Shown one piece after another: positions 27,167 through 42,928 of a stretch of 64,000 nt of DNA (position 1 is the stretch's first letter; the number at the start of each line of letters is the position of its first letter). Source of the DNA: Bradyrhizobium canariense (GTDB lineage: Bacteria > Pseudomonadota > Alphaproteobacteria > Rhizobiales > Xanthobacteraceae); contig NZ_LT629750.1 in NCBI RefSeq assembly GCF_900105125.1, forward strand, positions 6,413,001-6,477,000, in the 5' to 3' direction. Both the position numbers and the translations under genes were made by a program. The notes under the pieces were generated by a model. The model made no database searches. It was not told the DNA's origin and worked only from the letters and a program-made list of their open reading frames with translations.

Positions 27167-28012
27167 ATGGCAGAGATCGTTTTTGCGGCCGGTGCGCCGC
27201 ATGCGCCCGCTATCGTCGGCTTGTTCGACAAAGCGCCGGACGAATCGAAGAAGGTCGTCACCGACACCTACAGCGCAATCTCCAGGGAACTGAGAGATGC
27301 ACGTCCTGACGTGCTGATCGTGTTCGCGAACGATCACCTCGCCAACAGCCGCATCACCTTCTATCCGGACTTTTTGATAGGCACCGCTCCGGAGCATAGT
27401 GGTCCGCATGAATGGTTTCAGGAGTGGATCGGCTGCCGCGATTACACCGCGAAGGGTAATCCCGATGTTGCCAAGGCGCTGTTCCAGGGCATGACCCGCC
27501 GCGGGGTTCGCATGTCGGTGCGGGACGAGAACCTCAAATTCGACGATAATATCTCCGTGCCGGTCACGATGACCAATCTCGACCAGACCGGCATCACACT
27601 CGTGCCGGTGCTGCAAAATTGCACGGTGCCGCCGTTCCCCAATGCCGAACGCTGCTTCGAGGTCGGACACGCCTTGCGCGACTTCATCGAAAGGGACCTG
27701 CCCGCGGACATGCGTGTGGCGCTGTTCGGCTCGGGCGGATTGAGCCACGAACCGGGTGGCGTGAAATACTACAAGATCGATGAGGAATTCGACCGCAAGT
27801 TTCTCGAACTTTGTGCCAAGGGCGACCACAGGGCGCTGCTCAAGGAGATTACGGTCGATCGCATGGAAGAAGCCGGAATCGGCGGCACTGCCGAAGTCCT
27901 GTCGTGGTTTCCCGTGATGGCAGCGATCGGCGAGCGGCCGGGACGTACGTTCGGATACACCGGCTGGCCGAGCTTCCGGTGCGGCATCGGCGGCGTGATC
28001 TGGGATCTCTAG
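27167..28012 (+). CDS. Class III extradiol dioxygenase, LigB-type catalytic (beta) subunit
   Basis: 281 residues. The family iron and base residues are recognisable: His in GAPHAPAIVG near the N-terminus, FANDHLANS (Asp-His pair around residue 60) and GSGGLSHEPGG with its conserved His near 190. LigB-type enzymes cleave catechol-like or aminophenol-like rings next to the hydroxyl group with Fe(II) and O2. A LigA-type small subunit gene follows 20 bp later and an amidohydrolase-2 decarboxylase/hydrolase after that. The real substrate (protocatechuate-like, gallate-like or amino-hydroxybenzoate) cannot be told. Strong GAGGAGG ribosome-binding site. Confidence 0.85.
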   Translation: MAEIVFAAGAPHAPAIVGLFDKAPDESKKVVTDTYSAISRELRDARPDVLIVFANDHLANSRITFYPDFLIGTAPEHSGPHEWFQEWIGCRDYTAKGNPDVAKALFQGMTRRGVRMSVRDENLKFDDNISVPVTMTNLDQTGITLVPVLQNCTVPPFPNAERCFEVGHALRDFIERDLPADMRVALFGSGGLSHEPGGVKYYKIDEEFDRKFLELCAKGDHRALLKEITVDRMEEAGIGGTAEVLSWFPVMAAIGERPGRTFGYTGWPSFRCGIGGVIWDL

Positions 28013-28032
28013 GCAAAGCAGTGGGGAACGTC

Positions 28033-28350
28033 ATGGCTTGGGAAAAATTCAATCCAAACCTCGCCGCGCATGACCTTGTTCAGGACATGAAGTGGAATCC
28101 GGAGATTCGAAAGCAATTCAAGACCAACGAGGCGGCGGTGCTCGACCGTTACAAAATGTCTCCGGAGGAGCGCAAGGCGATCGAGGAGCGCGATTTCCGC
28201 AAGCTTTACGATCTCGGCATGCACCCCTATCTCGGCGGCCAGTTGTCGCGCTTCATCTGGGGTAACGACGCCGGCAAGGGCGCAGTCGAGGCTTCCAACA
28301 AATTGGTTGCCTCGTTGCAGGGCCACGACCGCGATATTCCGAAGAACTAA
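28033..28350 (+). CDS. LigA-type small (alpha) subunit of extradiol dioxygenase
   Basis: 105 residues from the ATG at 28033 (MAWEKFNPNLAAHD). The pattern KTNEAAVLDRYKMSPEERKA followed by DFRKLYDLGMHPYLGGQLSR fits the LigA superfamily, the helical cap subunit that closes the active site of LigB. Together with the preceding gene it makes an alpha-beta class III dioxygenase, with the usual gene order reversed (beta first). It also resembles LigA-like domains in other systems, but the adjacency supports this role. Confidence 0.8.
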   Translation: MAWEKFNPNLAAHDLVQDMKWNPEIRKQFKTNEAAVLDRYKMSPEERKAIEERDFRKLYDLGMHPYLGGQLSRFIWGNDAGKGAVEASNKLVASLQGHDRDIPKN

Positions 28351-28445
28351 GGCCAGCGATTTCGATGGCTTTGTCGCCTCCGCGCGCCGACGTGCGGTGC
28401 TTGCGAAGATAGTGACTTCAGTACAAAGGGTCCGGGTCGATCCGG

Positions 28446-29399
28446 ATGATTTCCGCCATGTCAGCACATCGAATTGACGTCCACCATCATATCCTGCCGC
28501 CGGGCTATGTTCGGGCGGTGGGCGATGATCGGATCGGACCTCTGATCGTCGCTGGCAAGACGCCGGAATGGACTCCGCAACATTCGATCGAGGCGATGGA
28601 TCGCAATGGCATCGAGAAGGCGATCACCTCGATCTCCGCGCCGGGCCTGTGGTTCGGTGATATCGATGCCACCCGACACCTGACGCGCGAGTGCAACGAC
28701 TACGCGGCCAGGATTCGGCTTGATCACCCGGGCCGGTTTGGAGTGTTTGCGAGTCTGCCGCTGCCGGACGTCGAAGGCAGTTTGCGCGAGATCGCCTATG
28801 CGCTCGACGAACTGAAAGCCGATGGCATTGGTATGCTTACCAACTATGACGGCAAGTACCCTGGCGACCCGGAATTCGCGCCGGTGCTCGACGAGCTCAA
28901 TCGGCGCGGCGCTGTGGTCTACTTCCATCCGACTGAAGCGCCATGCTGCCACATGCATGGGATCGGCGTGCCGGCTGCGACGCTCGAATTTCCCTTCGAC
29001 ACCACCAAGGCGGTGACGAACCTGCTGTTCAGCGGCACATTCGCGCGCTGCCGCGACATCCGCTTCATCTTTTCGCATGCAGGAGGCACGGTGCCGTTTC
29101 TGGCTGAGCGCATCGCGCGGCTCGAGGTTCGCCCCGAATTCCGCGCCAGCGTGCCGGATGGCGTGATGTTCGAATTGAAGCGTTTGTTCTTCGATACCGC
29201 GCTGTCGGCCAACCAGCTCGCGTTCAGCGCGCTGCTCAAGCTGGTCGCGCCCGAGCAAGTGTTGTTCGGCAGCGATTACCCGTTTGCCCCTGAATCCACG
29301 ATGGTTGCGACCGTCAAGGGATTGTCCGAACTAGGGCTGCCTGCAGATGTGCTTCTCGCGATCGAGCGCACCAACGCGCAGCGGTTGCTTAAAGGCTGA
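28446..29399 (+). CDS. Amidohydrolase-2 family protein (ACMSD-like decarboxylase/hydrolase)
   Basis: 313-317 residues (start at 28446 or at the ATG 28458, MSAHRIDVHHH). The metal site of the ACMSD/gamma-resorcylate decarboxylase superfamily is complete: HHH in DVHHHILPP, His in VVYFHPTEAP, His in FIFSHAGGTVPFL and Asp in LFGSDYPFAP. Members decarboxylate or hydrolyse ring-cleavage products without oxidation. It is probably cotranscribed with the LigAB-type dioxygenase. Because a 3-hydroxyanthranilate dioxygenase, aminomuconate-semialdehyde dehydrogenase and RidA are encoded 12 kb away, it could also be the missing ACMS decarboxylase of that route. Confidence 0.78.
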   Translation: MISAMSAHRIDVHHHILPPGYVRAVGDDRIGPLIVAGKTPEWTPQHSIEAMDRNGIEKAITSISAPGLWFGDIDATRHLTRECNDYAARIRLDHPGRFGVFASLPLPDVEGSLREIAYALDELKADGIGMLTNYDGKYPGDPEFAPVLDELNRRGAVVYFHPTEAPCCHMHGIGVPAATLEFPFDTTKAVTNLLFSGTFARCRDIRFIFSHAGGTVPFLAERIARLEVRPEFRASVPDGVMFELKRLFFDTALSANQLAFSALLKLVAPEQVLFGSDYPFAPESTMVATVKGLSELGLPADVLLAIERTNAQRLLKG

Positions 29400-29954: not shown

Positions 29955-30773
29955 CTATGCTCGAGCTTTTCGCTTCGATTGGGAAGGGCCCTTCCGGTTA
30001 GGCGCGGCGTTTTTGGTGGCGGGCGGCACTACTTGCTTGGATGGCCGTTGCTGAGTCGGAGCTTCCTTGCGTTCACCTAGAAGCATCAACGGCCCGTCTC
30101 CCGCGTTGAGCCCGACCAGAAAATCCATTCCGGCTCGCATCACATGCTCGGCCGCCAGCGTAGCGGATGTTCGTTCATCGCCGTCGATGATCGCGCGCAA
30201 AATGGCGGCGTGCTCCTCCCAAGTTCGGGCTTGCCTGCTCGGATCCATAGGCGCGAAAAGCATCGCGGTCCGTTCTCTAAATTTCTGGAGCAGATCCCCG
30301 AGCACAGTATTCTGTCCGGCCGCAGCGAGTTCGCTATGAAACTTTTGGTTGAGGTCGAATAATTGATCGAATCGCTTGCTTGCGACCGCCGCCGTGCCTT
30401 TATTCAAAATCGCCTCAATGCGCTTGATGATTTGCTTGTCACCACGGCGCGCCGCCAGTCTCGCGTTCTGTCCCTCTAGCAACGCGCGGACTTCGATTGT
30501 TTCTCGAGCTTCCTGCTCCGTCATGGTCGCAACCGTTGCACCGCGACGAGCCGTGACGTTGACCAAGCCTTCGGATGCGAGCGCACGAATGGCTTCTCGT
30601 ACCGGATTGCGAGAAACCCCCAATTCATCCGCTAGTCGCTCTTCAACCAAACGCTCGCCCGGCCTCAATCGCCCCGATAGAATTGCTTGGCGCAGCTCCG
30701 CGACGACACGATCGTGGAGTGAAAATTGGTCCTGGCCAAGTCGCCGCATTAGCGATCCGGGCATAAGAGTCAT
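29955..30773 (-). CDS. GntR-family transcriptional regulator (FCD type)
   Basis: 272 residues. Winged helix-turn-helix at 18-85 (ERLADELGVSRNPVREAIRAL), then the FCD helical domain (IEVRALLEGQNARLA, NQKFHSELAAAG, WEEHAAILRAI) with the usual metal/ligand His and Asp positions. A basic, Pro/Lys-rich tail follows, as in the other GntR of the window. It lies next to the diiron-oxygenase/ferredoxin operon on the same strand, 308 bp downstream. TTGTATAC-type palindromes around that operon and before the amidase operon are its likely binding sites. Confidence 0.88.
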   Translation of the reverse strand: MTLMPGSLMRRLGQDQFSLHDRVVAELRQAILSGRLRPGERLVEERLADELGVSRNPVREAIRALASEGLVNVTARRGATVATMTEQEARETIEVRALLEGQNARLAARRGDKQIIKRIEAILNKGTAAVASKRFDQLFDLNQKFHSELAAAGQNTVLGDLLQKFRERTAMLFAPMDPSRQARTWEEHAAILRAIIDGDERTSATLAAEHVMRAGMDFLVGLNAGDGPLMLLGERKEAPTQQRPSKQVVPPATKNAAPNRKGPSQSKRKARA

Positions 30774-31081: not shown

Positions 31082-31450
31082 TCAACTTTCGTCTAGCCCG
31101 CTGCCCCTGGGGCACGAGACAACAGCGGGAATCTCCGTTCGCTGCGCCGGCGCGCGGCGCTCGGCCAACGGCACCCAAGAAACGCTCACGTCGCCATTGA
31201 GGAACGTCTGACAAGCCATACGATAACCCGCTTTGAACTCATCGTCGGTCAAATGCTTGCGCTCCTTTGGCTTGATAGCATCTGTGTGTTCAAGGCCCTG
31301 TTCGACCCGACATTTGCATGTGCCGCACAACCCGCCGCCGCATTTGAACGGAATGCCGCCTTGCTCGCGCAACGATACCCGGAGCAGGTTGCTGTTCGCA
31401 GGCGCGTTCGCCACTTTGCCCTTGTTGGTAAGGAAGGTGACCTGAATCAT
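31082..31450 (-). CDS. [2Fe-2S] ferredoxin (plant type), ferredoxin 2 of the oxygenase operon
   Basis: 122 residues from the ATG at 31450 (MIQVTFLTNKGK). The cluster motif is CGGGLCGTCKC (C-x5-C-x2-C, with one further Cys) with the last ligand in YRMACQTF, the plant/vertebrate-type [2Fe-2S] arrangement. A tail of about 35 residues after the domain is unusual. It is the fourth gene of the operon diiron protein-ferredoxin-small protein-ferredoxin and probably passes electrons from an NAD(P)H reductase to the diiron centre. An alternative GTG start at 31465 adds five residues. Confidence 0.85.
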   Translation of the reverse strand: MIQVTFLTNKGKVANAPANSNLLRVSLREQGGIPFKCGGGLCGTCKCRVEQGLEHTDAIKPKERKHLTDDEFKAGYRMACQTFLNGDVSVSWVPLAERRAPAQRTEIPAVVSCPRGSGLDES

Positions 31451-31469
31451 GTCGTATCCAGTCACACCG

Positions 31470-31778
31470 TCAGCTTGTCGGAAGCGTCGTTTTGCGCAGC
31501 TCGGTGTCCATGTGGCCGAACGTCGTTAGATGCCTCAATTCTTCGAGGGCTTGTTGAGTCGTCTCGAATTTCTCAAGAAACTTTGAAGGCACGTCGTTGA
31601 CGATCGCGGTATCGTCCTCGATCACCCGGATCCGGGTGCTATCTTCGAGCAGCTCCGCGATCACGAAATGCGCCTTGGTCTGGCCGTAAAACAGATAATC
31701 GTAGGCCTCTAACGGCTTCAGGCCTTGAACCACCTTGGTCCTGAATTGTCCGGGCTTGCTTGTCAGAATGACATACAT
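31470..31778 (-). CDS. Small conserved-looking protein between two ferredoxin genes
   Basis: 102 residues from the ATG at 31778 (MYVILTSKPGQFRT), preceded by AAGGAAATCTC. No signal peptide, cysteine, or membrane segment. It reads as a compact alpha/beta protein: two strands (YVILTSKPGQF, AHFVIAELLE), a charged strand (TRIRVIEDDT) and a C-terminal helix (TTQQALEELRHLTTF). I do not recognise the family. Its place inside a diiron-oxygenase operon suggests an effector/coupling protein that adjusts oxygenase-ferredoxin contact, or an assembly factor; this is inference from position only. Confidence 0.75.
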   Translation of the reverse strand: MYVILTSKPGQFRTKVVQGLKPLEAYDYLFYGQTKAHFVIAELLEDSTRIRVIEDDTAIVNDVPSKFLEKFETTQQALEELRHLTTFGHMDTELRKTTLPTS

Positions 31779-31822
31779 GAGATTTCCTTGTGTTGTTGGC
31801 TGCATCTGCTCGGCAGCGCTTG

Positions 31823-32149
31823 TCACGGTACAACCGGCGCCAAAGGCTCGAGCGGAGTCTTGTCTTGTGCCAGTTCGATGTCGTGGTTGATCCAGAGCTG
31901 GCAGATCAGTCGGTAGCCCTCTTCCAGCCGAGGACCGAGCCGCTGTTTCTCCTTCCAGTTCGGAGCGGGCAGTTGCTCGGCGCCCTTAAGCACGCGGCAG
32001 GCACATTTCGCGCATTTTCCCATTCCGCATCCGTAACGCAGATGCGGATAAGGGAACTGCTTGATGCCCGCCCTGACGACAAGATTGCTGTTCGAGGCGA
32101 CCTCGCCCTGGTGGGCGTGGCCGTCACGATGAAGAATGACCTTGGGCAC
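31823..32149 (-). CDS. [2Fe-2S] ferredoxin, ferredoxin 1 of the oxygenase operon
   Basis: About 108 residues from the GTG at 32149, four bases after the diiron gene stop; longer upstream frames overlap that gene and lack resemblance. Cluster motif CGMGKCAKCACRV (C-x4-C-x2-C) and last ligand in YRLICQLW fit [2Fe-2S] ferredoxins. The spacing differs from ferredoxin 2, so the two are not recent duplicates. Cotranscribed with the diiron protein, whose redox partner it probably is. Confidence 0.82.
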   Translation of the reverse strand: MPKVILHRDGHAHQGEVASNSNLVVRAGIKQFPYPHLRYGCGMGKCAKCACRVLKGAEQLPAPNWKEKQRLGPRLEEGYRLICQLWINHDIELAQDKTPLEPLAPVVP

Positions 32150-32153
32150 TTGC

Positions 32154-32924
32154 TCAGGCCTGCAGCAGTTTTCGCTCGCCCTGTGGCACCTTGTGTTCGA
32201 CATTCTCGATCTCGTTGATCGGCACGTCCTTGGCAACATAGTCCCAATACAGAGCAGTCGTGTACAGCAGGCGCATCTGCGCGCCGACCTCGCAGATCTT
32301 CAGGCAGCGCTGTTGCAACTCGACCGTGTTGGCATGCTCAAGAACGATTTGATAGCCGCGCTCGCCGTGGATCTCATCGGACACGATATGGAGATCGAAG
32401 AATTCGACTTCCTCATCTGTGAATTTGTACTTCTCGCGCAGCGTCGGCGTCTGCTTGCGGTAGATCGAGGGCACCTGCGACTCCAAGCCGACGACCAGAC
32501 CGGCCACCGCAACGATCGGATCCTCGCGCATCGCGACCGAATAGCACCAGCTCTGCAAACCCCGGGTGGTGGGTGTCATATTGTCCGGATCGATGACCCG
32601 AGCCCGCGTCGTGCCGCACGCTTCCGCGAAACGGATGAGCAGATCCGTGTGGCGATCCCCGCCGATCTCTTCCTCGTACATGTTGGCCAGCAGGAAGTCC
32701 TTGGCCTCAGTATATCCTTCCGGCATCCGGGCATAGATGTAGGCGAGATAGTCCGCGAACGGACCGACATAGTGATAGTGGTTCTCGGCCCATTTGCCGA
32801 GATGTGCGCGGCTGAGCTTGCCGCTGGCCCAGGCGATGCTGAATGGAGCTTTGTTGGCACTCTTGCCTTTGATTGCGTTCTCGAGGGCCGATCGGAATTC
32901 TACATGGTTCATGAGTTCGGGCAT
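32154..32924 (-). CDS. Heme-oxygenase-like diiron protein (PqqC/TenA/CADD-like fold)
   Basis: 256 residues, ATG at 32924 preceded by AAAGGAG. It shows the six ligands of heme-oxygenase-like diiron oxygenases: E85 and H92 in NMYEEEIGGDRH, E148 in GLESQVP, and H179, D183, H186 in DLHIVSDEIHGE. The spacings (7, 31, 4, 3) agree closely with those I remember for CADD/UndA-type enzymes. Known members use Fe2 and O2 to cleave C-C or C-N bonds or to N-oxygenate amines. PqqC itself lacks this metal set and no pqq genes are nearby. First gene of an operon with two ferredoxins, so a ferredoxin-fed oxygenase is likely; the substrate is unknown. Confidence 0.82.
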   Translation of the reverse strand: MPELMNHVEFRSALENAIKGKSANKAPFSIAWASGKLSRAHLGKWAENHYHYVGPFADYLAYIYARMPEGYTEAKDFLLANMYEEEIGGDRHTDLLIRFAEACGTTRARVIDPDNMTPTTRGLQSWCYSVAMREDPIVAVAGLVVGLESQVPSIYRKQTPTLREKYKFTDEEVEFFDLHIVSDEIHGERGYQIVLEHANTVELQQRCLKICEVGAQMRLLYTTALYWDYVAKDVPINEIENVEHKVPQGERKLLQA

Positions 32925-32960
32925 TCATGGGCTCCTTTTCCGGTGTTTCCAGTCGTGCAA

Positions 32961-32975
32961 TTTTGTATACGAAAA
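32961..32975. promoter_or_regulatory. TTGTATAC-type GntR operator, oxygenase side
   Basis: TTTTGTATACGAAAA, a near-perfect palindrome around GTATAC, 37 bases before the diiron-protein start. It matches the TNGT-AC-NA style of GntR/FCD operators and recurs at 33079-33089 and 42910-42928. Confidence 0.55.
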
Positions 32976-33078
32976 GGTGTTATTGTCAATTCATTAGGCT
33001 GGAAGGAATCGGCAAATAGGGCATAAATGTCGCGTTTTTGGTCATTTTGCGATTTATTTGACGTTGTAGATCAGAATA

Positions 33079-33089
33079 CTGTATACAAG
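33079..33089. promoter_or_regulatory. TTGTATAC-type GntR operator, transporter side
   Basis: CTGTATACAAG with core GTATAC, 52 bases before the permease start, in the same divergent region as the site at 32961-32975. The two centres are about 116 bases apart. Confidence 0.5.
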
Positions 33090-33140
33090 AAAATGAGATG
33101 AGCCGACCGCTCGACGCTCAAGTATCAACAAGGGGGGAGT

Positions 33141-34697
33141 ATGCTCCAGCAGGCCACTATCAGTGCGGCTCATTGGACTTATCTTGCAGGGGTCGCGGCG
33201 GTCGTGCTCACCATGGTCTTTCGCGCGAACGTGGTTGTCCCATCCATAATCGCCACGTTTGCCGTTGCTTTGGCGTGGACCGGGAGTCCGGTAACTGCCC
33301 TCGCAAGCATCTTCAATGCGAGTTTCGTCGCCGCCAAGGAGCTGTTCAACATCTTCCTGGTGATCGCCCTGATCACCTCGCTGCTGAACGCGCTGAAGTC
33401 GCTGCGCTCCGACGTGCTGATGGTGCAGCCGTTCCGCGCGGTGATGACCAACGGCCACTCCGCGTTCTTCATCCTCGCCGCCGTGACTTACGTCATTTCG
33501 TTGTTCTTCTGGCCGACGCCTGCGGTTCCGCTGGTGTCCGCGGTGCTGCTGCCCGCGGCGATCGTCGCCGGGCTGCCGCCGCTCGCCGGCGCCATGGCGA
33601 TCGCGATCGCCGGGCAGGGCATGGCGCTGTCGTCCGATTACGTGATCGGCGTAGCACCAGGCATCAGCGCCAAGGCTGCCGGCGCGGCGATCAGCGCCGC
33701 GGCGGTGGCCGACCGCGCGCTGTCGCTATCGCTGATCACCGGCGGCATCGCATTGCTGTTGGCCTATTTCTCGATCCGCAAGCTGATCCAGCCGGGCAGC
33801 GAGGCGTTGCTCGAGCGGTGGCAGCGCCAGTCGGTCAACGGCGAACTTGAGCGGCTGGAAGCCGTCGGCACGTTCGACAAGGCCGAGATGGCCCGCGGCA
33901 CCAGCACCAGCTACGAAGAACCGCTCACCATTGATGCCGAGATCCGGCACGAGCGGCCGCACGTCGCGACGCGCCACGAGGCCTGGTCGAAACTATTCGC
34001 GATTCTCGCGCCACTCGGCTTCGCCGCCGTGATCGCGGTGATGGTGCTGCCGAAACTCGGCGTCGACATTGGCTCGGCCGAACTCAAGGGCGGCGCCGCC
34101 GCCGCTTTGGTCGGCGGCATGGGCGCGGCGCTGATGATCCTGGCGACGCTCGCCGCCGAGGGCGCGCGCCGCAGTCTCGACGTCTGCGCCGACCATATCA
34201 CTGACGGCTTCGTGTTCGCGTTCAAGGCGATGGGCTCGGTGCTGCCGATCGCCGGCTTCTTCTTCCTGGGCGCGGGCGGCGACCTCGCCGCCGGCGTCCT
34301 CAATGTCCCGGTCGGCGACGCGCCGCCGCTGCTGTTCAACCTGATCCAGAGCGCGGAGCCGTGGATTCCGCACAGCCACATCCTGGTGGCGTTCGGCGTC
34401 CTGCTGGTCGGCATGATCACCGGCGTCGACGGCTCCGGTTTCGCTGGCCTGCCGCTGACCGGCTCGCTGGCCGGCGCGCTCGGACCGACCGTCGGGCTCG
34501 ATGTCACCACGTTGTGCGCCGTCGGACAGATGGGCGCGGTGTGGACCGGCGGCGGGACGTTGATCGCGTGGTCGTCGTTGATTGCCGTGGCCGGGTTCGC
34601 GCGGGTGTCCGTGCTCGACACAGTTCGGGCGCTGCTGCTGCCCGTGCTGGCCGGGCTCGCCGTCTCCACAATCTGTGCCGTGTTGTTCTGGAGCTAG
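33141..34697 (+). CDS. Multi-span inner-membrane permease of unassigned family
   Basis: 518 residues with about a dozen hydrophobic segments and one hydrophilic central loop (around residues 220-285). Conserved-looking stretches are FFWPTPAVPLVSAVLLPAA, GQGMALSSDYVIGVAPG and GVDGSGFAGLPLTGSLAG. They recall ion-transporter-superfamily carriers (DcuC/GntP/CitM-like), but I cannot assign a family with certainty. The start ATG follows AAGGGGGGAG-like sequence. As first gene of the operon divergent from the diiron oxygenase, it probably imports the substrate. GC content is clearly higher than in the facing ferredoxin operon. Confidence 0.75.
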   Translation: MLQQATISAAHWTYLAGVAAVVLTMVFRANVVVPSIIATFAVALAWTGSPVTALASIFNASFVAAKELFNIFLVIALITSLLNALKSLRSDVLMVQPFRAVMTNGHSAFFILAAVTYVISLFFWPTPAVPLVSAVLLPAAIVAGLPPLAGAMAIAIAGQGMALSSDYVIGVAPGISAKAAGAAISAAAVADRALSLSLITGGIALLLAYFSIRKLIQPGSEALLERWQRQSVNGELERLEAVGTFDKAEMARGTSTSYEEPLTIDAEIRHERPHVATRHEAWSKLFAILAPLGFAAVIAVMVLPKLGVDIGSAELKGGAAAALVGGMGAALMILATLAAEGARRSLDVCADHITDGFVFAFKAMGSVLPIAGFFFLGAGGDLAAGVLNVPVGDAPPLLFNLIQSAEPWIPHSHILVAFGVLLVGMITGVDGSGFAGLPLTGSLAGALGPTVGLDVTTLCAVGQMGAVWTGGGTLIAWSSLIAVAGFARVSVLDTVRALLLPVLAGLAVSTICAVLFWS

Positions 34698-34746
34698 ACC
34701 ACGATCCGGAAAAGTGGAAACCGGTTTTTCGAACGGACCATGCTTA
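34698..34746. repeat. Intergenic palindromic repeat (REP-like), copy 2
   Basis: Reverse-oriented copy of the element at 7721-7770: it contains GATCCGGAAAAGTGGAAACC, then GGTTTTTCGAACGGACCATGC. It sits between the permease and aldehyde dehydrogenase genes of one operon and may influence mRNA stability there. Confidence 0.75.
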
Positions 34747-34776
34747 GAAAAGAAGATGAGATGAGGAAAAATCGTC

Positions 34777-36276
34777 ATGACTGAAACCGCAACCTCCCTC
34801 GGGCGCGCCTACGCGGCGCGTACCGGAAGCATTGAAGACTTCAGGAATTACATCGACGGACAATGGTCGGCGGGCGAAACCGGCGAAACCATCGACAATA
34901 TCAGTCCGGCGGATACCCGCGACATTGTCGGCCGGTTTCCGGCCTCCTCGGCGAAGGATGCGGATGCGGCGGTCCGCGCGGCCGCAGCAGCCTTCGCAAG
35001 CTGGAAAAAGACTTCCGTGTCCGCCCGGGCGAAGATTCTGAACGCCGCAGCCGACTATCTGGACGCCAATGTCGATCGCTTCGCCGCGGAATTGACGCGG
35101 GAGATGGGCAAGGCGCTCAATCTGAGCAAGGACGAGATCCTGCGCTCGGCACAGACCCTGCGGTTCTATGCGGTCGAAGGCCAGTCGTTCACGGGCGAGA
35201 CCTTTCCCAACGACGATCCCGACATGATCGTCTACAGCCAGCGCGAACCGCTCGGCGTGGTGTCGGTGATCACGCCGTGGAATTTTCCGGTGTCGATCCC
35301 GGCGCGCAAGATTGCGCCGGCGCTGATCGCCGGCAACACCGTGGTGTTCAAGCCGTCGTCGGATGCGCCGATGAGCGGCTATCGCCTCACGGAGGCCTTC
35401 GTCGCCGCCGGGATTCCCAAGGGCGTGCTCAATTTCATCACCGGAGGCGCCGCCGATGTCGGCCCGGCCATCACGGTGCCGTCGGTGGTCCGCGCGATCT
35501 CGTTCACCGGCTCGACCACGGCCGGTGAGCAGATCCATCGCTCGGTCGGCTTCACCACCCGCACCCAGATGGAGCTTGGCGGCAAGAACCCGCTGATCGT
35601 GATGGAGGATGCCGATCTCGACAAGGCCGTCGATCTAACCATCAAGGGCGGCCTGTCGCTCAGCGGCCAGGCCTGCACGGGCACCAGCCGCGTGCTGGTG
35701 ATGAAGCAGGTGAAGGCGGCATTCACCGAGAAGCTCGTCGCTCGGGTGAAGGCGCTGAAGGTCGGCGACGGCATGGTCGCGGGTTACGATATCGGACCGC
35801 TGGCGACCGCGCGGCAACTGGACACGGTGCTGCGCTACATCGCGATCGGAAAGAGTGAGGCGACGCTGTTGTGCGGCGGCGAGCGCCTGAGCGGTCCGGC
35901 CTATGATCACGGTTATTACGTGTCGCCGGCGATTTTCACCGATGTCACCCAGGACATGCGGATCGCCCGCGAGGAAATCTTCGGGCCGGTGATCGCCCTT
36001 ATCGAGGTAACGAGCTATGCGGATGCCATCGCCAAGGCGAACGACACCGAGTACGGGCTGTCCTCCGCGATCGCGACCCGCAATCCACGCTACATCCACG
36101 ACTTCGCGAGCGACATCGAATCCGGAACGGTCAAGATCAATCGCACCACCACCGGCAACCTAATCAACGCGCCGTTCGGCGGCCTGAAGCGCTCCAGCAC
36201 CTCGACCTTCCGCGAGTCCGGCCGCGCCGCGCTGGAATTCTATACCCAGATCAAGACGGTCTATCGCGGCTGCTGA
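34777..36276 (+). CDS. NAD(P)-dependent aldehyde dehydrogenase
   Basis: 499 residues, full length. N in TPWNFPVSIPARK, catalytic Glu in MELGGKNPLIVM and nucleophilic Cys in LSGQACTGTSRVLV are present. The YSQREPLGVVSVITPWNFP and NAPFGGLKRSSTSTFRESG blocks resemble alpha-ketoglutaric- and succinate-semialdehyde-type dehydrogenases. It probably oxidises an aldehyde formed downstream of the diiron oxygenase. It belongs to the operon permease-dehydrogenase-HbpS-reductase-GGT. Confidence 0.88.
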   Translation: MTETATSLGRAYAARTGSIEDFRNYIDGQWSAGETGETIDNISPADTRDIVGRFPASSAKDADAAVRAAAAAFASWKKTSVSARAKILNAAADYLDANVDRFAAELTREMGKALNLSKDEILRSAQTLRFYAVEGQSFTGETFPNDDPDMIVYSQREPLGVVSVITPWNFPVSIPARKIAPALIAGNTVVFKPSSDAPMSGYRLTEAFVAAGIPKGVLNFITGGAADVGPAITVPSVVRAISFTGSTTAGEQIHRSVGFTTRTQMELGGKNPLIVMEDADLDKAVDLTIKGGLSLSGQACTGTSRVLVMKQVKAAFTEKLVARVKALKVGDGMVAGYDIGPLATARQLDTVLRYIAIGKSEATLLCGGERLSGPAYDHGYYVSPAIFTDVTQDMRIAREEIFGPVIALIEVTSYADAIAKANDTEYGLSSAIATRNPRYIHDFASDIESGTVKINRTTTGNLINAPFGGLKRSSTSTFRESGRAALEFYTQIKTVYRGC

Positions 36277-36335
36277 CCCGCGACTGACTTCACTCATCCG
36301 ATAATTTTCACAGGTCAAACCACCGGGACACCCAC

Positions 36336-36815
36336 ATGAGATCGTCATTCAAGCTCGAACTCGAAGAAGCGCGTGTTATGGTCGCCGCCGCTATCCGCAA
36401 ATCGCAAGAGATCGGCGTACTGGAAACCGTCTGCGTCGCCGACGAGGGCGGCTATCCGCTGGCGCTGGAGCGCATGGACCGTGCCCGTGTGACCGGACCG
36501 CAGATCGCCTGGAACAAGGCCTTCACCGCAGCCGGGCACAAGCGCTCGACCCATCTGTTCAACCAGTCGCCTAATGGCCCGGCGCTGCCGGGCAACGAAG
36601 CATTCGGCATTCAGTGGAGCTTCGAGGGCCGCTTCGCGGTGTTCGTCGGCGGCTTTCCGATCGTGGTCGACGACGAGGTCGTCGGCGGCATTGGCCTCAG
36701 CGGCGGCAACGGCGAGCAGGATACCGCCTGCGGCGTCGCGGCCCTGCAGGCGCTGCAGGAGCTGCTGACGCCGAAGAAGCATCGCGTGCTGGTCAAGGCC
36801 GACATCAAGTTGTGA
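36336..36815 (+). CDS. GlcG/HbpS-family protein
   Basis: 159 residues with the GlcG/HbpS (DUF336) pattern: an N-terminal helix, VCVADEGGYPLALERMDRA, GPQIAWNKAFTAAGHKRST, GGFPIVVDDEVVGGIGLSGG and GEQDTACGVAALQAL. Family members bind haem or act as small cofactor or substrate-binding proteins, often encoded with oxidoreductases and oxygenases of catabolic operons. The role here is unknown. The stop lies 11 bases before the start of the reductase gene. Confidence 0.85.
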   Translation: MRSSFKLELEEARVMVAAAIRKSQEIGVLETVCVADEGGYPLALERMDRARVTGPQIAWNKAFTAAGHKRSTHLFNQSPNGPALPGNEAFGIQWSFEGRFAVFVGGFPIVVDDEVVGGIGLSGGNGEQDTACGVAALQALQELLTPKKHRVLVKADIKL

Positions 36816-36826
36816 CGGAGGAAGTC

Positions 36827-37840
36827 GTGACTTTCCGAATACAAATCGCGCACACGGACCAATCCTTCGACGTGGAGTCCGGCGAGACAATTCTGGCGGC
36901 TGCGTTGCGCGCGAACGTCAATCTGGAACACGATTGTCAACTTGGCGGCTGCGGTACGTGCCGCATCAAGCTGATCGAGGGCTCAGTCGCGTATGATGAG
37001 TTTCCGCTGGCGTTGACGCCGGAAGAAGAAGATCAAGGTTACGCACTGGCCTGTCAGGCCAAGCCCGAATGCAACCTCGTCATTAGCTCGGCCTTCGCCC
37101 AAGCAGAGATGCCGACCGCCGCGCACCATCTTGCAACAGTTCACGCCATTCGGCCCGTCAGTCCACTGGTTACCCGTCTTGTGCTGGAAGTTCCTGCTGT
37201 AACAGAGTTGGACTACCGGCCAGGGCAGCACATGAACGTCATCCTTCCCGATAATAGCACACGAAGTTTTTCAATGGCGTCCGCCCCACAAGACAATCGG
37301 ATCGATTTCCACGTGAGGCATATCGAAGGCGGTAGATTCACCCAAGATATACTTGGAAACCTAAAGGTCGGCGAGGCGCTGCATGTAGAGTTGCCGCTGG
37401 GAGGTTTTTATTTCCGCGCCGATGATGACCGGCCTTTACTGATGGTTGCGACCGGCACCGGGTTGGCGCCCATCAAAGCGATCCTTGAGTCTCTAATGTG
37501 CGATCCGAGCTGTCCGCCGGTCTGCCTATATTGGGGTGCACGGACCGCTGCCGATCTCTATCTGCATGATGAGATCTTGACATGGTCCGACCGGCTCTAC
37601 GAATTCAAATTCATGCCGGTACTATCCCGTGCTGCGCCCACGTGGCGGGGACGTCGCGGCTACGTGCAAGATGCGGTGGCTGCAGATTTCGAGGACCTCT
37701 CTGAACACGCGATCTATCTGTGCGGATCACCCGAGATGATCTTCAGCGCCAAGCAAGCCTTTGCAGCTCGCGGCGCTTCGATCGAGCACATATATACCGA
37801 GGGTTTCACTCTGCAGCATTCTCTGCCGGTTCCTTCCTGA
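36827..37840 (+). CDS. [2Fe-2S]-FAD-NAD(P)H ferredoxin-type reductase
   Basis: 337 residues from the GTG at 36827, preceded by ACGGAGGAA; a GTG at 36812 overlapping the previous stop is the alternative. N-terminal ferredoxin domain (CQLGGCGTCRIKL, last Cys in ALACQAKPE), then FAD domain (RSFSMAS) and NAD domain (GTGLAPIKAIL, YLCGSPEMI). The order is that of phenol/methane monooxygenase and CDP-glucoseen reductases. It is the only NAD(P)H-dependent electron donor in the region and could feed the two ferredoxins and the diiron protein encoded divergently. Base use is less GC-rich than that of its operon neighbours. Confidence 0.88.
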   Translation: MTFRIQIAHTDQSFDVESGETILAAALRANVNLEHDCQLGGCGTCRIKLIEGSVAYDEFPLALTPEEEDQGYALACQAKPECNLVISSAFAQAEMPTAAHHLATVHAIRPVSPLVTRLVLEVPAVTELDYRPGQHMNVILPDNSTRSFSMASAPQDNRIDFHVRHIEGGRFTQDILGNLKVGEALHVELPLGGFYFRADDDRPLLMVATGTGLAPIKAILESLMCDPSCPPVCLYWGARTAADLYLHDEILTWSDRLYEFKFMPVLSRAAPTWRGRRGYVQDAVAADFEDLSEHAIYLCGSPEMIFSAKQAFAARGASIEHIYTEGFTLQHSLPVPS

Positions 37841-37848
37841 CAGAATCC

Positions 37849-39651
37849 ATGCGCAAAAATATCACCGATCCGTTCACCACGAGGCCGGAAATCGAAGGCA
37901 CTTTCAGCGTCGTCACCTCGACCCACTGGATCGCCACCGCGGTCGGAATGGGCATTCTGGAGAAAGGCGGCAACGCTTTCGACGCCGGTGTCGCCACCGC
38001 GTTTACGCTGCAGGTTGTCGAGCCGCATCTGAACGGCCCGGGCGGCGACGTGCCGATCATCGTGCACGATGTCAAACGCGCCCGCACCGAGGTGATCTGC
38101 GGCCAGGGCCCGGCGCCGTCGGGCGCAACCATTGCGCACTACCGCAGCGAAGGCCTCGACATGGTGCCCGGCACGGGGCTGTTGGCCGCCTGCGTCCCCG
38201 GCACGTTCGAATCCTGGATGCTGCTGCTGCGCGATTACGGCACGATGCGGCTGCGCGATGTGCTGGAACCGGCCATCGCCTATGCCCGTGACGGCTATCC
38301 GCTGGTGGAGCGCGCCGCGGCGACGATCCAAACCGTCGAGCAATTGTTCAGGAACCACTGGACCACGTCGGCGGCGGTCTATTTGCCGAACAATGAAGTG
38401 CCAAAGCCCGGCACCCTCTTCACCAACCCAAGGCTTTCCGAGACTTATGCCCGCATCTTAAAGGAAGCCGAAAGCGCGGGCGCCGACCGTGTCGCGCAGA
38501 TTGAACGGGCGCGAAAGGCCTGGTCCCATGGTTTCGTCGCCGAGGCGATCGGTCAATTCTGCCGGACCCAGGAGATCATGGATGTCAGCGGCGCGCCGCA
38601 TCGCGGCGTGCTGACTGCCGACGACATGGCGCGCTGGCAGCCCACCATCGAAGCCCCGCTGACCTACGATTATGGCCGCTATACCGTCTGCAAACCCGGG
38701 GTCTGGAGCCAGGGACCGGTGATGCTGCAGCAGCTCGCGCTGCTCAAGGGATTCACGCTGGACGGGCTCGACCCGGCAGGACCCGAGTTCATTCACCTGC
38801 AAATCGAATGCGCCAAACTGGCCTACGCCGACCGCGAGAAGTTTTACGGCGATCCGAAGTTCAGCGAAATCCCGATCGCGACGCTGTTGTCCGATGCCTA
38901 TAATGACGAGCGACGCAAGTTGATCTCGGATCAGGCCTCGCTCGATTTCATCCCCGGCTCGGTCGAGGGCTTCGGTGCGGTGGTGAAATTGCGCCGCCAG
39001 GAAGGTCACCGCGAAGCCGTCGGCGCCATGGGCGCTGGCGAGCCGACCGTCGGCCGCTTCGGCGAGGTGCGCGGCGACACTGTGCATTTCGACATTATCG
39101 ATTCCGCCGGCAACATGATCTCGGCAACGCCCTCCGGCGGCTGGCTGCAATCATCGCCGGTCATCCCCGAACTCGGCTTCTGTCTCGGCAGCCGCGCACA
39201 GATGTTCTGGCTCGAGGAAAATCATCCTGCCGCACTGGCGCCGGGCAAGCGCCCGCGCACCACGCTCAGCCCGACCATGGCGCTGCGCGACGGTGAGCCT
39301 TATCTGGCCTGGGGTTCGCCCGGCGGCGATCAGCAGGATCAATGGATCACGCAATTCTTCCTGCGGCATGTCCATGCCAAGCTGAACCTGCAGGAAGCGA
39401 TCGACGCGCCCGCCTGGCATTCGGAGCATTTCCCGATCTCGTTCTGGCCACGCACCGCGCGGCCCGGCGTGCTGGTGGTGGAAGATCGCGTGTCGAAGGC
39501 GACCGTCGATACGCTGAAAGACCGCGGCCATATCGTCGAGACCGGCCCAAGCTGGTCGGAGGGCCGCCTTACGGCGGCCTCGAAAATCGGCAAACGCCGG
39601 CGTGCCGCCGCGAACCCGCGCGGCATGCAGGGCTACGCGGCCGGACGGTAG
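37849..39651 (+). CDS. Gamma-glutamyltransferase-family Ntn hydrolase
   Basis: 600 residues from the ATG at 37849. The N-terminal large-subunit blocks (ATAVGMGILEKGGNAFDAGV, EPHLNGPGGD) and the small-subunit start GDTVHFDIIDSAGN, with T411 as the expected self-cleavage nucleophile, place it in the GGT family. The catalytic-loop region TTLSPTMALRDGEPYLAWG is typical. No signal peptide is visible from this start, so it may be a cytoplasmic amidase- or acylase-like member (YwrD type) instead of a periplasmic glutathione enzyme. Last gene of the operon; cleavage of a gamma-glutamyl or other amide of the substrate is plausible. Confidence 0.85.
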   Translation: MRKNITDPFTTRPEIEGTFSVVTSTHWIATAVGMGILEKGGNAFDAGVATAFTLQVVEPHLNGPGGDVPIIVHDVKRARTEVICGQGPAPSGATIAHYRSEGLDMVPGTGLLAACVPGTFESWMLLLRDYGTMRLRDVLEPAIAYARDGYPLVERAAATIQTVEQLFRNHWTTSAAVYLPNNEVPKPGTLFTNPRLSETYARILKEAESAGADRVAQIERARKAWSHGFVAEAIGQFCRTQEIMDVSGAPHRGVLTADDMARWQPTIEAPLTYDYGRYTVCKPGVWSQGPVMLQQLALLKGFTLDGLDPAGPEFIHLQIECAKLAYADREKFYGDPKFSEIPIATLLSDAYNDERRKLISDQASLDFIPGSVEGFGAVVKLRRQEGHREAVGAMGAGEPTVGRFGEVRGDTVHFDIIDSAGNMISATPSGGWLQSSPVIPELGFCLGSRAQMFWLEENHPAALAPGKRPRTTLSPTMALRDGEPYLAWGSPGGDQQDQWITQFFLRHVHAKLNLQEAIDAPAWHSEHFPISFWPRTARPGVLVVEDRVSKATVDTLKDRGHIVETGPSWSEGRLTAASKIGKRRRAAANPRGMQGYAAGR

Positions 39652-40016: not shown

Positions 40017-41324
40017 TCACGCAAGCCGGCCCGCGGGTGCCGGCTGGCGCCCGTCGTCATGGACGGTTACGCCCTCACCAGCTGTCTCGTCCAGTTCGAT
40101 GCCGGTGGTTTCCGGCAGCAGTGCGGCGGAGAGTATCACCATGGCATAACCAACGCCGGCCACCATAGCAATCGCCAGCGGCAGAGAGGTGCCATTGCTG
40201 CTCAGCCATCCCACCGACAGCGGGAAGAGCGAACCGATGACACGGCCCACGTTGTAGGACACGCCATAGCCGGTCGCGCGAACGTCGTTCGGATACGACT
40301 CCGAGATAGTCGCGCCGATGCCGGAGAACACGCCTTGCATCATTACTCCGAGCGGAAAGCCAAGGAACAGCATCGACGTATTGGAGACGGGGATCACCAT
40401 ATACGCCAGCGCCATCGCGAAGGCGCCTGCCGCGAAGACAATATAGGTCAGGCGGCGGCCCCATCGGTCCGTGGCGTAGGCGCCGGCCACGTAGCCGACA
40501 AACGAGCCGAGGATGGTCACGGTTAGATACGAACTGGTGCCGAAGACGGACAAGCCGCGCTCGGTCTTCAGGAAGGTCGGCAGCCACGTGGCGATCGCGT
40601 AATACGCTCCCAGCATGCCGCCGGATAACAGGCTGCACAGCACCGTCTTCCTCATCAGCGGTTTGCGGAACACGCGCATGAAGCTCTGCGCCGGCGACAC
40701 TCCGTTCTGCCGCGCGCGGCTCCTGAGAAAAAGCTCGGGTTCTTCCAGATTGCGACGCAAATACACCACTACCAACGCTGGCAGGATGCCGAGGAAGAAG
40801 CAAACCCGCCAAGCAATGTCCGGCGCGAACAAGTTGAAAGTGATCGCATAGGCGATCGCTGCGGCGCCCCAGCCAAACGAAAAGCTGCTTGCGGTAAAAC
40901 CGGAATATTTGCCTCGGTGCGCCGGGTTGCGGATCATCTCCGTCACCAGCACCATGCACAGCGACGATTCACCGCCGAAGCCAAGCCCCTGGATGGTGCG
41001 GAAGATCATAAGCTGCTCGGGCGAATTGGCCATGCCGCACAGGAAACAAGCTACCGCAAACACGACGATCGTCCAGCGCAGCACGCGCACGCGACCGTAG
41101 CGGTCCGCCAGCAGCCCCGCACCGATCGCGCCCACGAGGGACGATACCAGCGTCCACGTGACGATGGCGCCCGCTGCCGATTTGCTCATGCTCCACTGCG
41201 TAAGCAGCGTGGGAATCAGGAACGAATAGATCATGAAGTCGAAGACGTCGACCGCGTGTCCGAGGAACGCGCCATAGAAGCCCTTGCGTTCCATGCGTGA
41301 CAGCTCTTTAAACCAATCCAGCAT
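40017..41324 (-). CDS. MFS transporter (aromatic acid/metabolite:H+ symporter-like)
   Basis: 435 residues from the ATG at 41324, chosen because AAGGAGGGAG lies seven bases before it; the frame is open to 41360. Twelve membrane helices with MFS signatures: DVFDFMIYSFLIPTL in helix 1, GLLADRYGRVRVLRW after helix 2, and GAYATDRWGRRLTYI in the second half. The N-terminal FD motif in helix 1 is typical of the AAHS/metabolite symporter branch. It follows the amidase gene by 32 bp in one operon and probably imports the amidase substrate or a related acid. Confidence 0.88.
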   Translation of the reverse strand: MLDWFKELSRMERKGFYGAFLGHAVDVFDFMIYSFLIPTLLTQWSMSKSAAGAIVTWTLVSSLVGAIGAGLLADRYGRVRVLRWTIVVFAVACFLCGMANSPEQLMIFRTIQGLGFGGESSLCMVLVTEMIRNPAHRGKYSGFTASSFSFGWGAAAIAYAITFNLFAPDIAWRVCFFLGILPALVVVYLRRNLEEPELFLRSRARQNGVSPAQSFMRVFRKPLMRKTVLCSLLSGGMLGAYYAIATWLPTFLKTERGLSVFGTSSYLTVTILGSFVGYVAGAYATDRWGRRLTYIVFAAGAFAMALAYMVIPVSNTSMLFLGFPLGVMMQGVFSGIGATISESYPNDVRATGYGVSYNVGRVIGSLFPLSVGWLSSNGTSLPLAIAMVAGVGYAMVILSAALLPETTGIELDETAGEGVTVHDDGRQPAPAGRLA

Positions 41325-41356: not shown

Positions 41357-42871
41357 TCACTGGCCGTGAACATCTTGCGCCGGCATAACTGCTGGCGGCG
41401 GCTGGAATGCGTGACCGCTACTCTCCAGCAGCTGGGCAAAACGCAGCGACGTCAGATCGCCAAAGCGCGGAGCGACGATCTGCACGCCGACCGGTAGTCC
41501 GCTGTGCCCGGGGCCGATGGGCGCTATGGTCGACGGCAGACCGCACAGGCCAGAATACCCGGCCCAGAATAGCTGGGTCGTCATCGGCTGCGGGTTGCCG
41601 TTGACGGACAGCACGCGCTGCCACGGCTCACCCGATTCGTTGAGCGGGAACGCGGTAGTGGCGGCAGCCGGGCACAGCAGCACATCGTAGTCGCAAAAGA
41701 ATCGCTGCCATGCCTCCGCGAAGCGCCTGCGCGCCGCCTGCAGGAGCAGCCAGCGCCGGTGGTGCATGCCGGCGCCGACGAATTGCAGGGCCGCATAGCT
41801 GTGGTCGGTGGAATTAGGTTCCGCTCGGTCGAGCAGAGCGGCAAACGCCGTGTCGTCCGTGTAGATGGATGTGGTTGCTCGGAGCAGCAGGATATAGGTG
41901 TGCCACAGCTCGATCGCATCGATGTCGGGGCGCGCCTGCCAGCTAACCTTGGCATTCTGGCTCTCCAGCCACCGTCCGAGCGCTTCGATGGTCTCGCTCA
42001 CTTCCGCGTCGACTTCGGCAAAGGGGTGGCTGGGAAGAACGGCAACGCGGAACGTGCTCAATGCCGTATGCGCGCAGCGCGGCAAAGTCAGGTTGTAGGC
42101 CAGCGCCTCGTCCGCCTCGGGCCCGGCAATTGCCTGCAGCACGCATTCGAGGTCGTGCGCGCTGCGGGCCACCGGTCCGGCAACGTTGATGTCTTGGGCG
42201 ACAAACCCAGGGGCCGCAGTTCCGTGGCCCGTCAACGGTACGATGCCGAGACTGCTCTTGTGCGAGAACACACCGCAATAATGTGCCGGATTGCGCAGCG
42301 ACGAACCGATGTCCGAGCCGATGTCGAAAAAGCTCATACCAGCACACACGGCCGCTGCGCTACCTCCCGACGATCCGCCTGGCGTCCGGCTCGGGTCGCG
42401 CGGATTGCGGGTCGTGCCATAGAGGGCGTTGTAGGTCTGCCAGTCGCGCAGGCCGAGGGGCACGTTGGTTTTGCCGAGCAGCACAGCGCCTTGCGCCCGC
42501 AGGCGCTCGACCACAAGCGCATCCTGGCTCGCGCGATGAGTGGCGTGGGCGGGACTGCCGCAGGTAGTGGGCCATCCCTGCACGTCGAAGGATTCCTTGA
42601 TGCTGAAAGGAATGCCATCCAGCGCGCCGAGCGCGGCGTTGGCGCGCCGACGCTGGTCACTTTCGGCGGCGGCCCGGTGAGCGCCCTCGAAATTAGCCAC
42701 CACCATCGCGTTAACGGTCGCGTTCGCTGCGAGGTAGGCGCGTTCGCAAGCGTCCACCAGCTCGGCCGCGCTGGTTTGTCCGGACTGCAGCCACTGCACG
42801 GCGCGCCAGAGTGGCGCGAAGCAAAGGCTGCCCCGGCTGTCGTCAGGACAGGGCAGGTCTAAAGCATTCAA
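41357..42871 (-). CDS. Amidase (amidase-signature family)
   Basis: About 504 residues from a TTG at 42871, selected because ACAGGAGGAAAC lies seven bases upstream; a GTG at 42901 is in frame but has no such site. The Ser-cisSer-Lys triad is visible: Lys in IPFSIKESF (about 92), the TPGGSSGGSAAAV loop and the nucleophile in GSDIGSSLRNPAH (about 191). Members hydrolyse carboxamides in the cytoplasm. A TTGTATAC-type palindrome 39 bases upstream ties it to the diiron-oxygenase regulon. It is followed by the MFS gene. Confidence 0.86.
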   Translation of the reverse strand: MNALDLPCPDDSRGSLCFAPLWRAVQWLQSGQTSAAELVDACERAYLAANATVNAMVVANFEGAHRAAAESDQRRRANAALGALDGIPFSIKESFDVQGWPTTCGSPAHATHRASQDALVVERLRAQGAVLLGKTNVPLGLRDWQTYNALYGTTRNPRDPSRTPGGSSGGSAAAVCAGMSFFDIGSDIGSSLRNPAHYCGVFSHKSSLGIVPLTGHGTAAPGFVAQDINVAGPVARSAHDLECVLQAIAGPEADEALAYNLTLPRCAHTALSTFRVAVLPSHPFAEVDAEVSETIEALGRWLESQNAKVSWQARPDIDAIELWHTYILLLRATTSIYTDDTAFAALLDRAEPNSTDHSYAALQFVGAGMHHRRWLLLQAARRRFAEAWQRFFCDYDVLLCPAAATTAFPLNESGEPWQRVLSVNGNPQPMTTQLFWAGYSGLCGLPSTIAPIGPGHSGLPVGVQIVAPRFGDLTSLRFAQLLESSGHAFQPPPAVMPAQDVHGQ

Positions 42872-42909
42872 GCAGTTTCCTCCTGTAGCTGATGAGGACA
42901 CGCCGCTGG

Positions 42910-42928
42910 ATTGTATACTACATACAAT
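42910..42928. promoter_or_regulatory. TTGTATAC-type operator before the amidase-MFS operon
   Basis: ATTGTAT-ACTAC-ATACAAT is a perfect inverted repeat (7+5+7) that also contains TTGTATAC, the core of the sites at 32961 and 33079. It lies just upstream of the amidase ribosome-binding site. Confidence 0.6.

Follow-up and report, generated by a model that had tools for sequence, protein, structure and literature searches.

A heme-oxygenase-like diiron protein encoded with two ferredoxins and a small partner protein in a probable catabolic oxygenase system of alpha- and betaproteobacteria

We have analyzed a 64,000-nucleotide stretch of the genome of Bradyrhizobium canariense (the window), in which a heme-oxygenase-like diiron protein (HDO) is encoded together with two [2Fe-2S] ferredoxins (Fdx1 and Fdx2) and a protein of 102 amino acids (P102). 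The four genes HDO, Fdx1, P102 and Fdx2 form a genomic unit. The system to which they belong is probably a multicomponent O2-using oxygenase (or oxidase), with HDO as its catalytic component, in a GntR-controlled catabolic regulon. An original prediction of such an oxygenase is partly supported: it was right in outline, but its reductase, GGT-like hydrolase and aldehyde parts are weaker than claimed and the regulon is wider.

The source genome (7.84 Mb) is a single contig. On the minus strand of the window the genes are ordered HDO (32154..32924, PF14518), Fdx1 (31823..32149, PF00111), P102 (31470..31778, family unknown) and Fdx2 (31082..31450, PF00111, E 4e-13), with short gaps; a GntR-FCD regulator (29955..30773, PF00392 and PF07729) then follows on the same strand. 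From reading of the sequence, Fdx1 likely starts at the GTG at 32149; the likely start of Fdx2 is the ATG at 31450. Divergent from these genes, on the plus strand, are a permease of 518 amino acids with hydrophobic segments and no Pfam match (33141..34697), an aldehyde dehydrogenase (ALDH; 34777..36276, PF00171, E 7e-162), a GlcG/HbpS-like DUF336 protein (36336..36815, PF03928), a [2Fe-2S]-FAD-NAD reductase with BenC as best NCBIfam match and a likely GTG start (36812..37840), and a GGT-like hydrolase (37849..39651, PF01019). An amidase (41357..42901, NF004816, score above cut-off) and, downstream of it, an MFS transporter that best matches the aromatic acid/H+ symport family (40017..41324) are again on the minus strand. 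These profile searches against Pfam and NCBIfam bore out the gene families named in the original prediction. Adjoining the cluster, at 27167-29399, an amidohydrolase gene and genes for LigB/LigA-like extradiol dioxygenases were recognised by eye; these neighbours may hint at an aromatic substrate.

HDO has the heme-oxygenase-like helical fold of its superfamily (PF14518), and its ligand set consists of three histidines and three carboxylates in the pattern E-x6-H, E, H-x3-D-x2-H. The six predicted diiron ligands (E85, H92, E148, H179, D183 and H186), already pointed out in the original prediction, align with those of CADD and are invariant in 56 aligned sequences, drawn from 44 of the 80 locus HDOs described below and 11 of 120 listed proteins. 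Family and ligand residues together place HDO in the heme-oxygenase-like diiron superfamily, as judged from sequence.

Gene neighbourhoods were surveyed in the best 80 of 293 genome relatives of HDO, all with at least 80% identity; the survey thus describes a close clade. The closest relatives among them are Hyphomicrobiales, including Bradyrhizobium. Flanks of up to 8 kb were fetched, and absence of a gene means absence within the flank. Among these best 80 of 293 loci, HDO is accompanied by Fdx1 in 79, by P102 in 79 and by Fdx2 in 78; contig ends cut both L049 and L015, and the P102 of L015 is a fragment at the contig end. A script found P102 flanked by Fdx1 and Fdx2, all on the same strand, in 77 of 79 cases, the two exceptions being L015, which ends ahead of Fdx2, and L037, where a start call overshoots and the order is correct. 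The copies from the best 80 loci have a median identity to the window proteins of 87% for HDO, 80% for the DUF336 protein, 77% for Fdx2, 68% for Fdx1 and 56% for P102. Gene order differs by genus: Bradyrhizobium has two divergent operons as in the window, and Cupriavidus and Achromobacter have other orders. That the genes are kept together without a fixed order argues for a joint function.

Genome samples gave the same association. P102 was found in 3 of 297 genomes of the window's own order, and these three are the only ones with an HDO of this clade (at least 85% identity); in the remaining 84 that gave an HDO match, identity is at most 32%. In a sample from the order of genome G521, P102 is present in 5 of 240 genomes, all five with an HDO of at least 85% identity. 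A phylum sample, searched for P102 without a separate search for HDO, yielded P102 in 4 of 398 genomes, and in one of them (G588) P102 again lies between Fdx1 and Fdx2. A small protein often found without the diiron gene would have spoken against the predicted system; among the 537 genomes sampled for P102 and HDO, P102 occurs only in those with this HDO. The prediction of an HDO with its own ferredoxins and small partner is supported, and the unit is conserved in alpha- and betaproteobacteria, on the evidence of the best 80 of 293 loci and the order samples.

The DUF336 protein (PF03928, 113 bits against a cut-off of 25) is present in 77 of the best 80 of 293 loci; L025 and L041 begin shortly before HDO, and L030 has no copy within the flank. 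The family, which also includes GlcG and NahX (PF03928), has as a member EfgA, described as a formaldehyde sensor that binds formaldehyde and not acetaldehyde (PMC8153426, text available in part). The residues with which EfgA binds, K57, S114 and D121, correspond to K61, S122 and D129 of the window protein and are kept in all 76 aligned sequences, comprising the window and 75 of the 77 copies from the best 80 loci, two copies being outside length or stop limits. EfgA is reported in the available text to lack a conserved gene neighbourhood, whereas the DUF336 protein of the cassette has one (PMC8153426). We allow a minor chance that HDO is an oxidative demethylase or another C1-releasing HDO, with formaldehyde lost from the substrate, as in the BesC reaction, and sensed or bound by the DUF336 protein, and the rest taken by ALDH. 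The constancy of the DUF336 protein in the surveyed loci, at a median 80% identity, and its kinship with a formaldehyde-binding protein favour this. However, NahX is itself a DUF336 protein, inspection of the loci, without a dedicated search, revealed no formaldehyde-specific dehydrogenase, and members of the family are described as also accompanying glycolate, propanediol and chloroaniline genes (PMC8153426, in part).

Both ferredoxins retain their cysteines. The motif CX4CX2C...C is found in 79 of 79 Fdx1 copies from the best 80 of 293 loci, and that of Fdx2 in all 79 rows; as the L015 row is the Fdx1 gene, 78 are true copies. No Cys or His of P102 is invariant in an alignment of 62 of the 79 locus copies with 24 of 120 listed proteins, and a search for the MmoB/DmpM effector family or fold returned no Pfam match above cut-off. 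Its homologues are named in the sources either "hypothetical" or "ferredoxin", the latter without any ferredoxin motif. Most likely P102 aids contact between HDO and the ferredoxins or gates O2 activation. Genome G815, from the order of G521, has an HDO of 79% identity and no P102 match. Its cassette (L155) keeps HDO, Fdx1, Fdx2 and DUF336, with HDO and DUF336 divergent from the ferredoxin genes, and the two ferredoxin matches are 5 bp apart, which leaves no space for P102; P102 is therefore not universally essential. G815 has four HDO matches (L155-L158), and no ferredoxin match was found within the 18-19 kb stretches fetched around the three others (34, 28 and 24% identity). Near two of these (L156 and L158), genes for Bug-type receptors were recognised by eye, and HDOs may recur in catabolic clusters.

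The remaining genes of the neighbourhood vary. The dedicated reductase and ALDH of the original prediction are both present in the window operon, but their conservation near the cassette is limited to 46 and 65 of the best 80 of 293 loci, respectively. A further reductase match has 26% identity, and the gene is missing within the fetched flank in 33 loci; the ALDH count is for at least 60% identity, with four more copies at 44-45%, and a close ALDH is missing in 15. The unit in the strict sense thus includes neither gene. The GGT-like hydrolase is likewise encoded in the operon as predicted but is lineage-specific, with a single close copy (L003) and five weak matches (24-33%) among the best 80 loci. 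The permease is present in 70 of these 80 and is 54-82% identical in four relatives compared. The amidase (E 1e-10) and the MFS transporter (at least 60% identity) are each found in 22 of the best 80 loci, the amidase of L051 being 65% identical to the window amidase stretch. Relatives add (E 1e-10) an ornithine-cyclodeaminase-like (OCD) gene in 34 of the best 80 loci and a TauE/SafE-like transporter, named by eye, in 37, and the ferredoxin genes of Caballeronia pSBC2-4 have an alpha/beta hydrolase gene next to them. Since the type of hydrolase varies while HDO, the ferredoxins and DUF336 are constant, the hydrolases may channel different conjugates into one common core.

A shared upstream site provides a second line of evidence, joining HDO, the permease and the amidase-MFS pair in one regulon. 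In the window GTATAC lies inside TGTATAC-like palindromes in both divergent promoters, at 32965 (TTTGTATACGAA, 32962..32973, ahead of HDO) and at 33081 (ACTGTATACAAG, 33078..33089, ahead of the permease), and at 42913, immediately upstream of the amidase (42910..42921); two more GTATAC sites, at 281 and 26335, are unconnected with the system. Among the best 80 of 293 loci, the 250 bp upstream contain a GTATAC in 74/80 cases for HDO, 68/70 for the permease and 21/22 for the amidase. The corresponding counts are 29/37 for the TauE/SafE-like gene, 36/76 for GntR, 17/65 for ALDH, 9/79 for Fdx1, 7/33 for OCD and 3/77 for DUF336; no site was found upstream of P102 (0/78), Fdx2 (0/78), the reductase (0/45), MFS (0/22) or GGT (0/4). 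The mean density in these loci is 0.069 per 250 bp. These counts omit copies with a start near a contig end, an alignment beginning past residue 60 or an identity under the script limits, and binomial values overstate significance because they treat related loci as independent. Six HDOs lack a site; in five of these loci (L063, L066, L067, L068 and L081) there are sites just before the permease that precedes HDO, and the sixth, L031, has none. The cassette stretch of G815 likewise contains no GTATAC site. The palindrome is a conserved operator-like site. The neighbouring GntR-FCD regulator, matched at 40% or more in 76 of the best 80 loci, presumably binds it, to judge from the habits of FCD-GntR proteins.

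Strict palindromes of the same form were also seen at L159 and L166, near succinyl-CoA-ligase-like and IclR-like genes and near a hydantoinase-like gene (by eye); they probably belong to other regulators. A small ORF of about 60 amino acids with a PVGxQLLxxxAxRDAVRHxTPL-like motif is present in 36 of 88 sequences (the window, the 80 loci and 7 others; for example L051:13466-13639, L116:18850-19029 and L082:7570-7776). The search admitted E values up to 1e-3, its weakest hits being short matches, and gave no match in the window; 24 of the 36 have a GTATAC within 150 bp.

Co-regulation could also unite unrelated activities, HDO being a stand-alone desaturase or lyase and the ferredoxins and P102 serving another oxygenase, but we think this improbable. 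Other HDOs are described as running with chemical reductants or mediators (PMC13185094, in part), which would suit such an enzyme. Possible clients are the ring-hydroxylating dioxygenases encoded near the cassette of Caballeronia pSBC2-4 and an MhpA-like FAD monooxygenase (by eye, cluster c29) that recurs in 7 of the best 80 of 293 loci (six from Bradyrhizobium, and L031). However, an MhpA-like flavin monooxygenase needs, to our knowledge, no ferredoxin. No other oxygenase cluster was noticed in six or more of the best 80 loci, with noisy clustering, and in the 537 sampled genomes P102 is seen only alongside an HDO of the clade.

For the multicomponent oxygenase that we favour, the electron order, chemistry, product and substrate class that we infer are as follows. 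An inducer would lift GntR off the TGTATAC operators, and the substrate would be imported via the permease or MFS; some lineages would beforehand release it from an amide or ester with the amidase, GGT or an alpha/beta hydrolase. Electrons from NAD(P)H would reach the ferredoxins through the reductase, or through some other reductase of the cell if this one is missing, and one or both ferredoxins would reduce the dimetal centre of HDO. By activating O2, HDO would then convert the substrate oxidatively into a carbonyl compound; the reactive aldehyde might be handled by the DUF336 protein and would be oxidised by ALDH. The predicted breakdown of an amine or amide to an aldehyde is plausible as a hypothesis.

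Soluble diiron monooxygenases (sMMO, toluene monooxygenases) comprise a reductase, a ferredoxin, a small non-redox protein and a hydroxylase, and by analogy the cassette, with its catalytic subunit, appears to have a common layout with them. Membership of that class was rejected for HDO, as the catalytic subunit is PF14518 with a heme-oxygenase-like fold and not ferritin-like; P102, unlike their small protein, has no Pfam match above cut-off. They are described as using an effector and a redox partner, and the HDOs studied so far are said to need no protein effector (PMC13108848, both from the part available). The original prediction had also noted that characterised HDOs (UndA, BesC, SznF, CADD) are not known to be encoded with a ferredoxin chain of their own. 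As a statement on dedicated redox partners this is partly outdated by MboA-MboB of mangotoxin biosynthesis: MboA is reported to need the flavin-[2Fe-2S] reductase MboB for full turnover and so has, as HDO of the cassette would, a dedicated NAD(P)H, flavin and [2Fe-2S] partner (PMC13185094, in part); MboB is, however, a single flavin-[2Fe-2S] reductase. The cassette's putative counterpart of MboB is the reductase gene in the divergent operon. Compared by description and not by sequence, MboAB is biosynthetic with a peptide substrate, and the available text mentions no separate ferredoxins or small partner, both of which the cassette has (PMC13185094). Among titles and abstracts, mainly of the open literature, we found no catabolic regulon that includes an HDO and separate ferredoxins, an absence that carries little weight. 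Only tentatively can the cassette be regarded as a full catabolic monooxygenase that evolved on the heme-oxygenase fold and converged on the reductase-ferredoxin-MmoB-hydroxylase arrangement of soluble diiron monooxygenases; its reductase would work with two ferredoxins, placed in series or in parallel, and P102 would be the first case of a protein effector for an HDO. The HDO cassette makes testable the electron supply to HDOs in vivo, the protein gating of any HDO and the use of the heme-oxygenase-like diiron fold in degradation, and it provides a context for the orphan 102-amino-acid family.

CADD is the nearest family to HDO by profile and by fold, and one source names many HDO homologues pyrroloquinoline-quinone synthase, but a CADD- or PqqC-type enzyme of p-aminobenzoate or PQQ synthesis, with ferredoxin genes beside it by chance, is very improbable: HDO scores 90 bits with TIGR04305 and 48 bits with TIGR02111 (curated cut-offs 200 and 240), S29 and Q158 of HDO align with Tyr27 and Lys152 of the self-sacrificing pABA synthases CADD/NePabS, described for CADD as the sacrificed residue and the amine donor (PMC11965152, in part), PQQ synthesis by PqqC is described as metal-independent (PMC13108848, in part) while HDO keeps the six-ligand set, and the transporters, ALDH and amidase give the regulon a catabolic appearance.

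Further HDO or HDO-like genes were also seen. G000:C1:6536370-6536909 encodes another HDO-like protein, only distantly related (19% identity), some 90 kb away from the first HDO, and G293:C5 carries two HDO copies (212731-213444 and 221634-222344) about 9 kb apart, each 85% identical to the window HDO.
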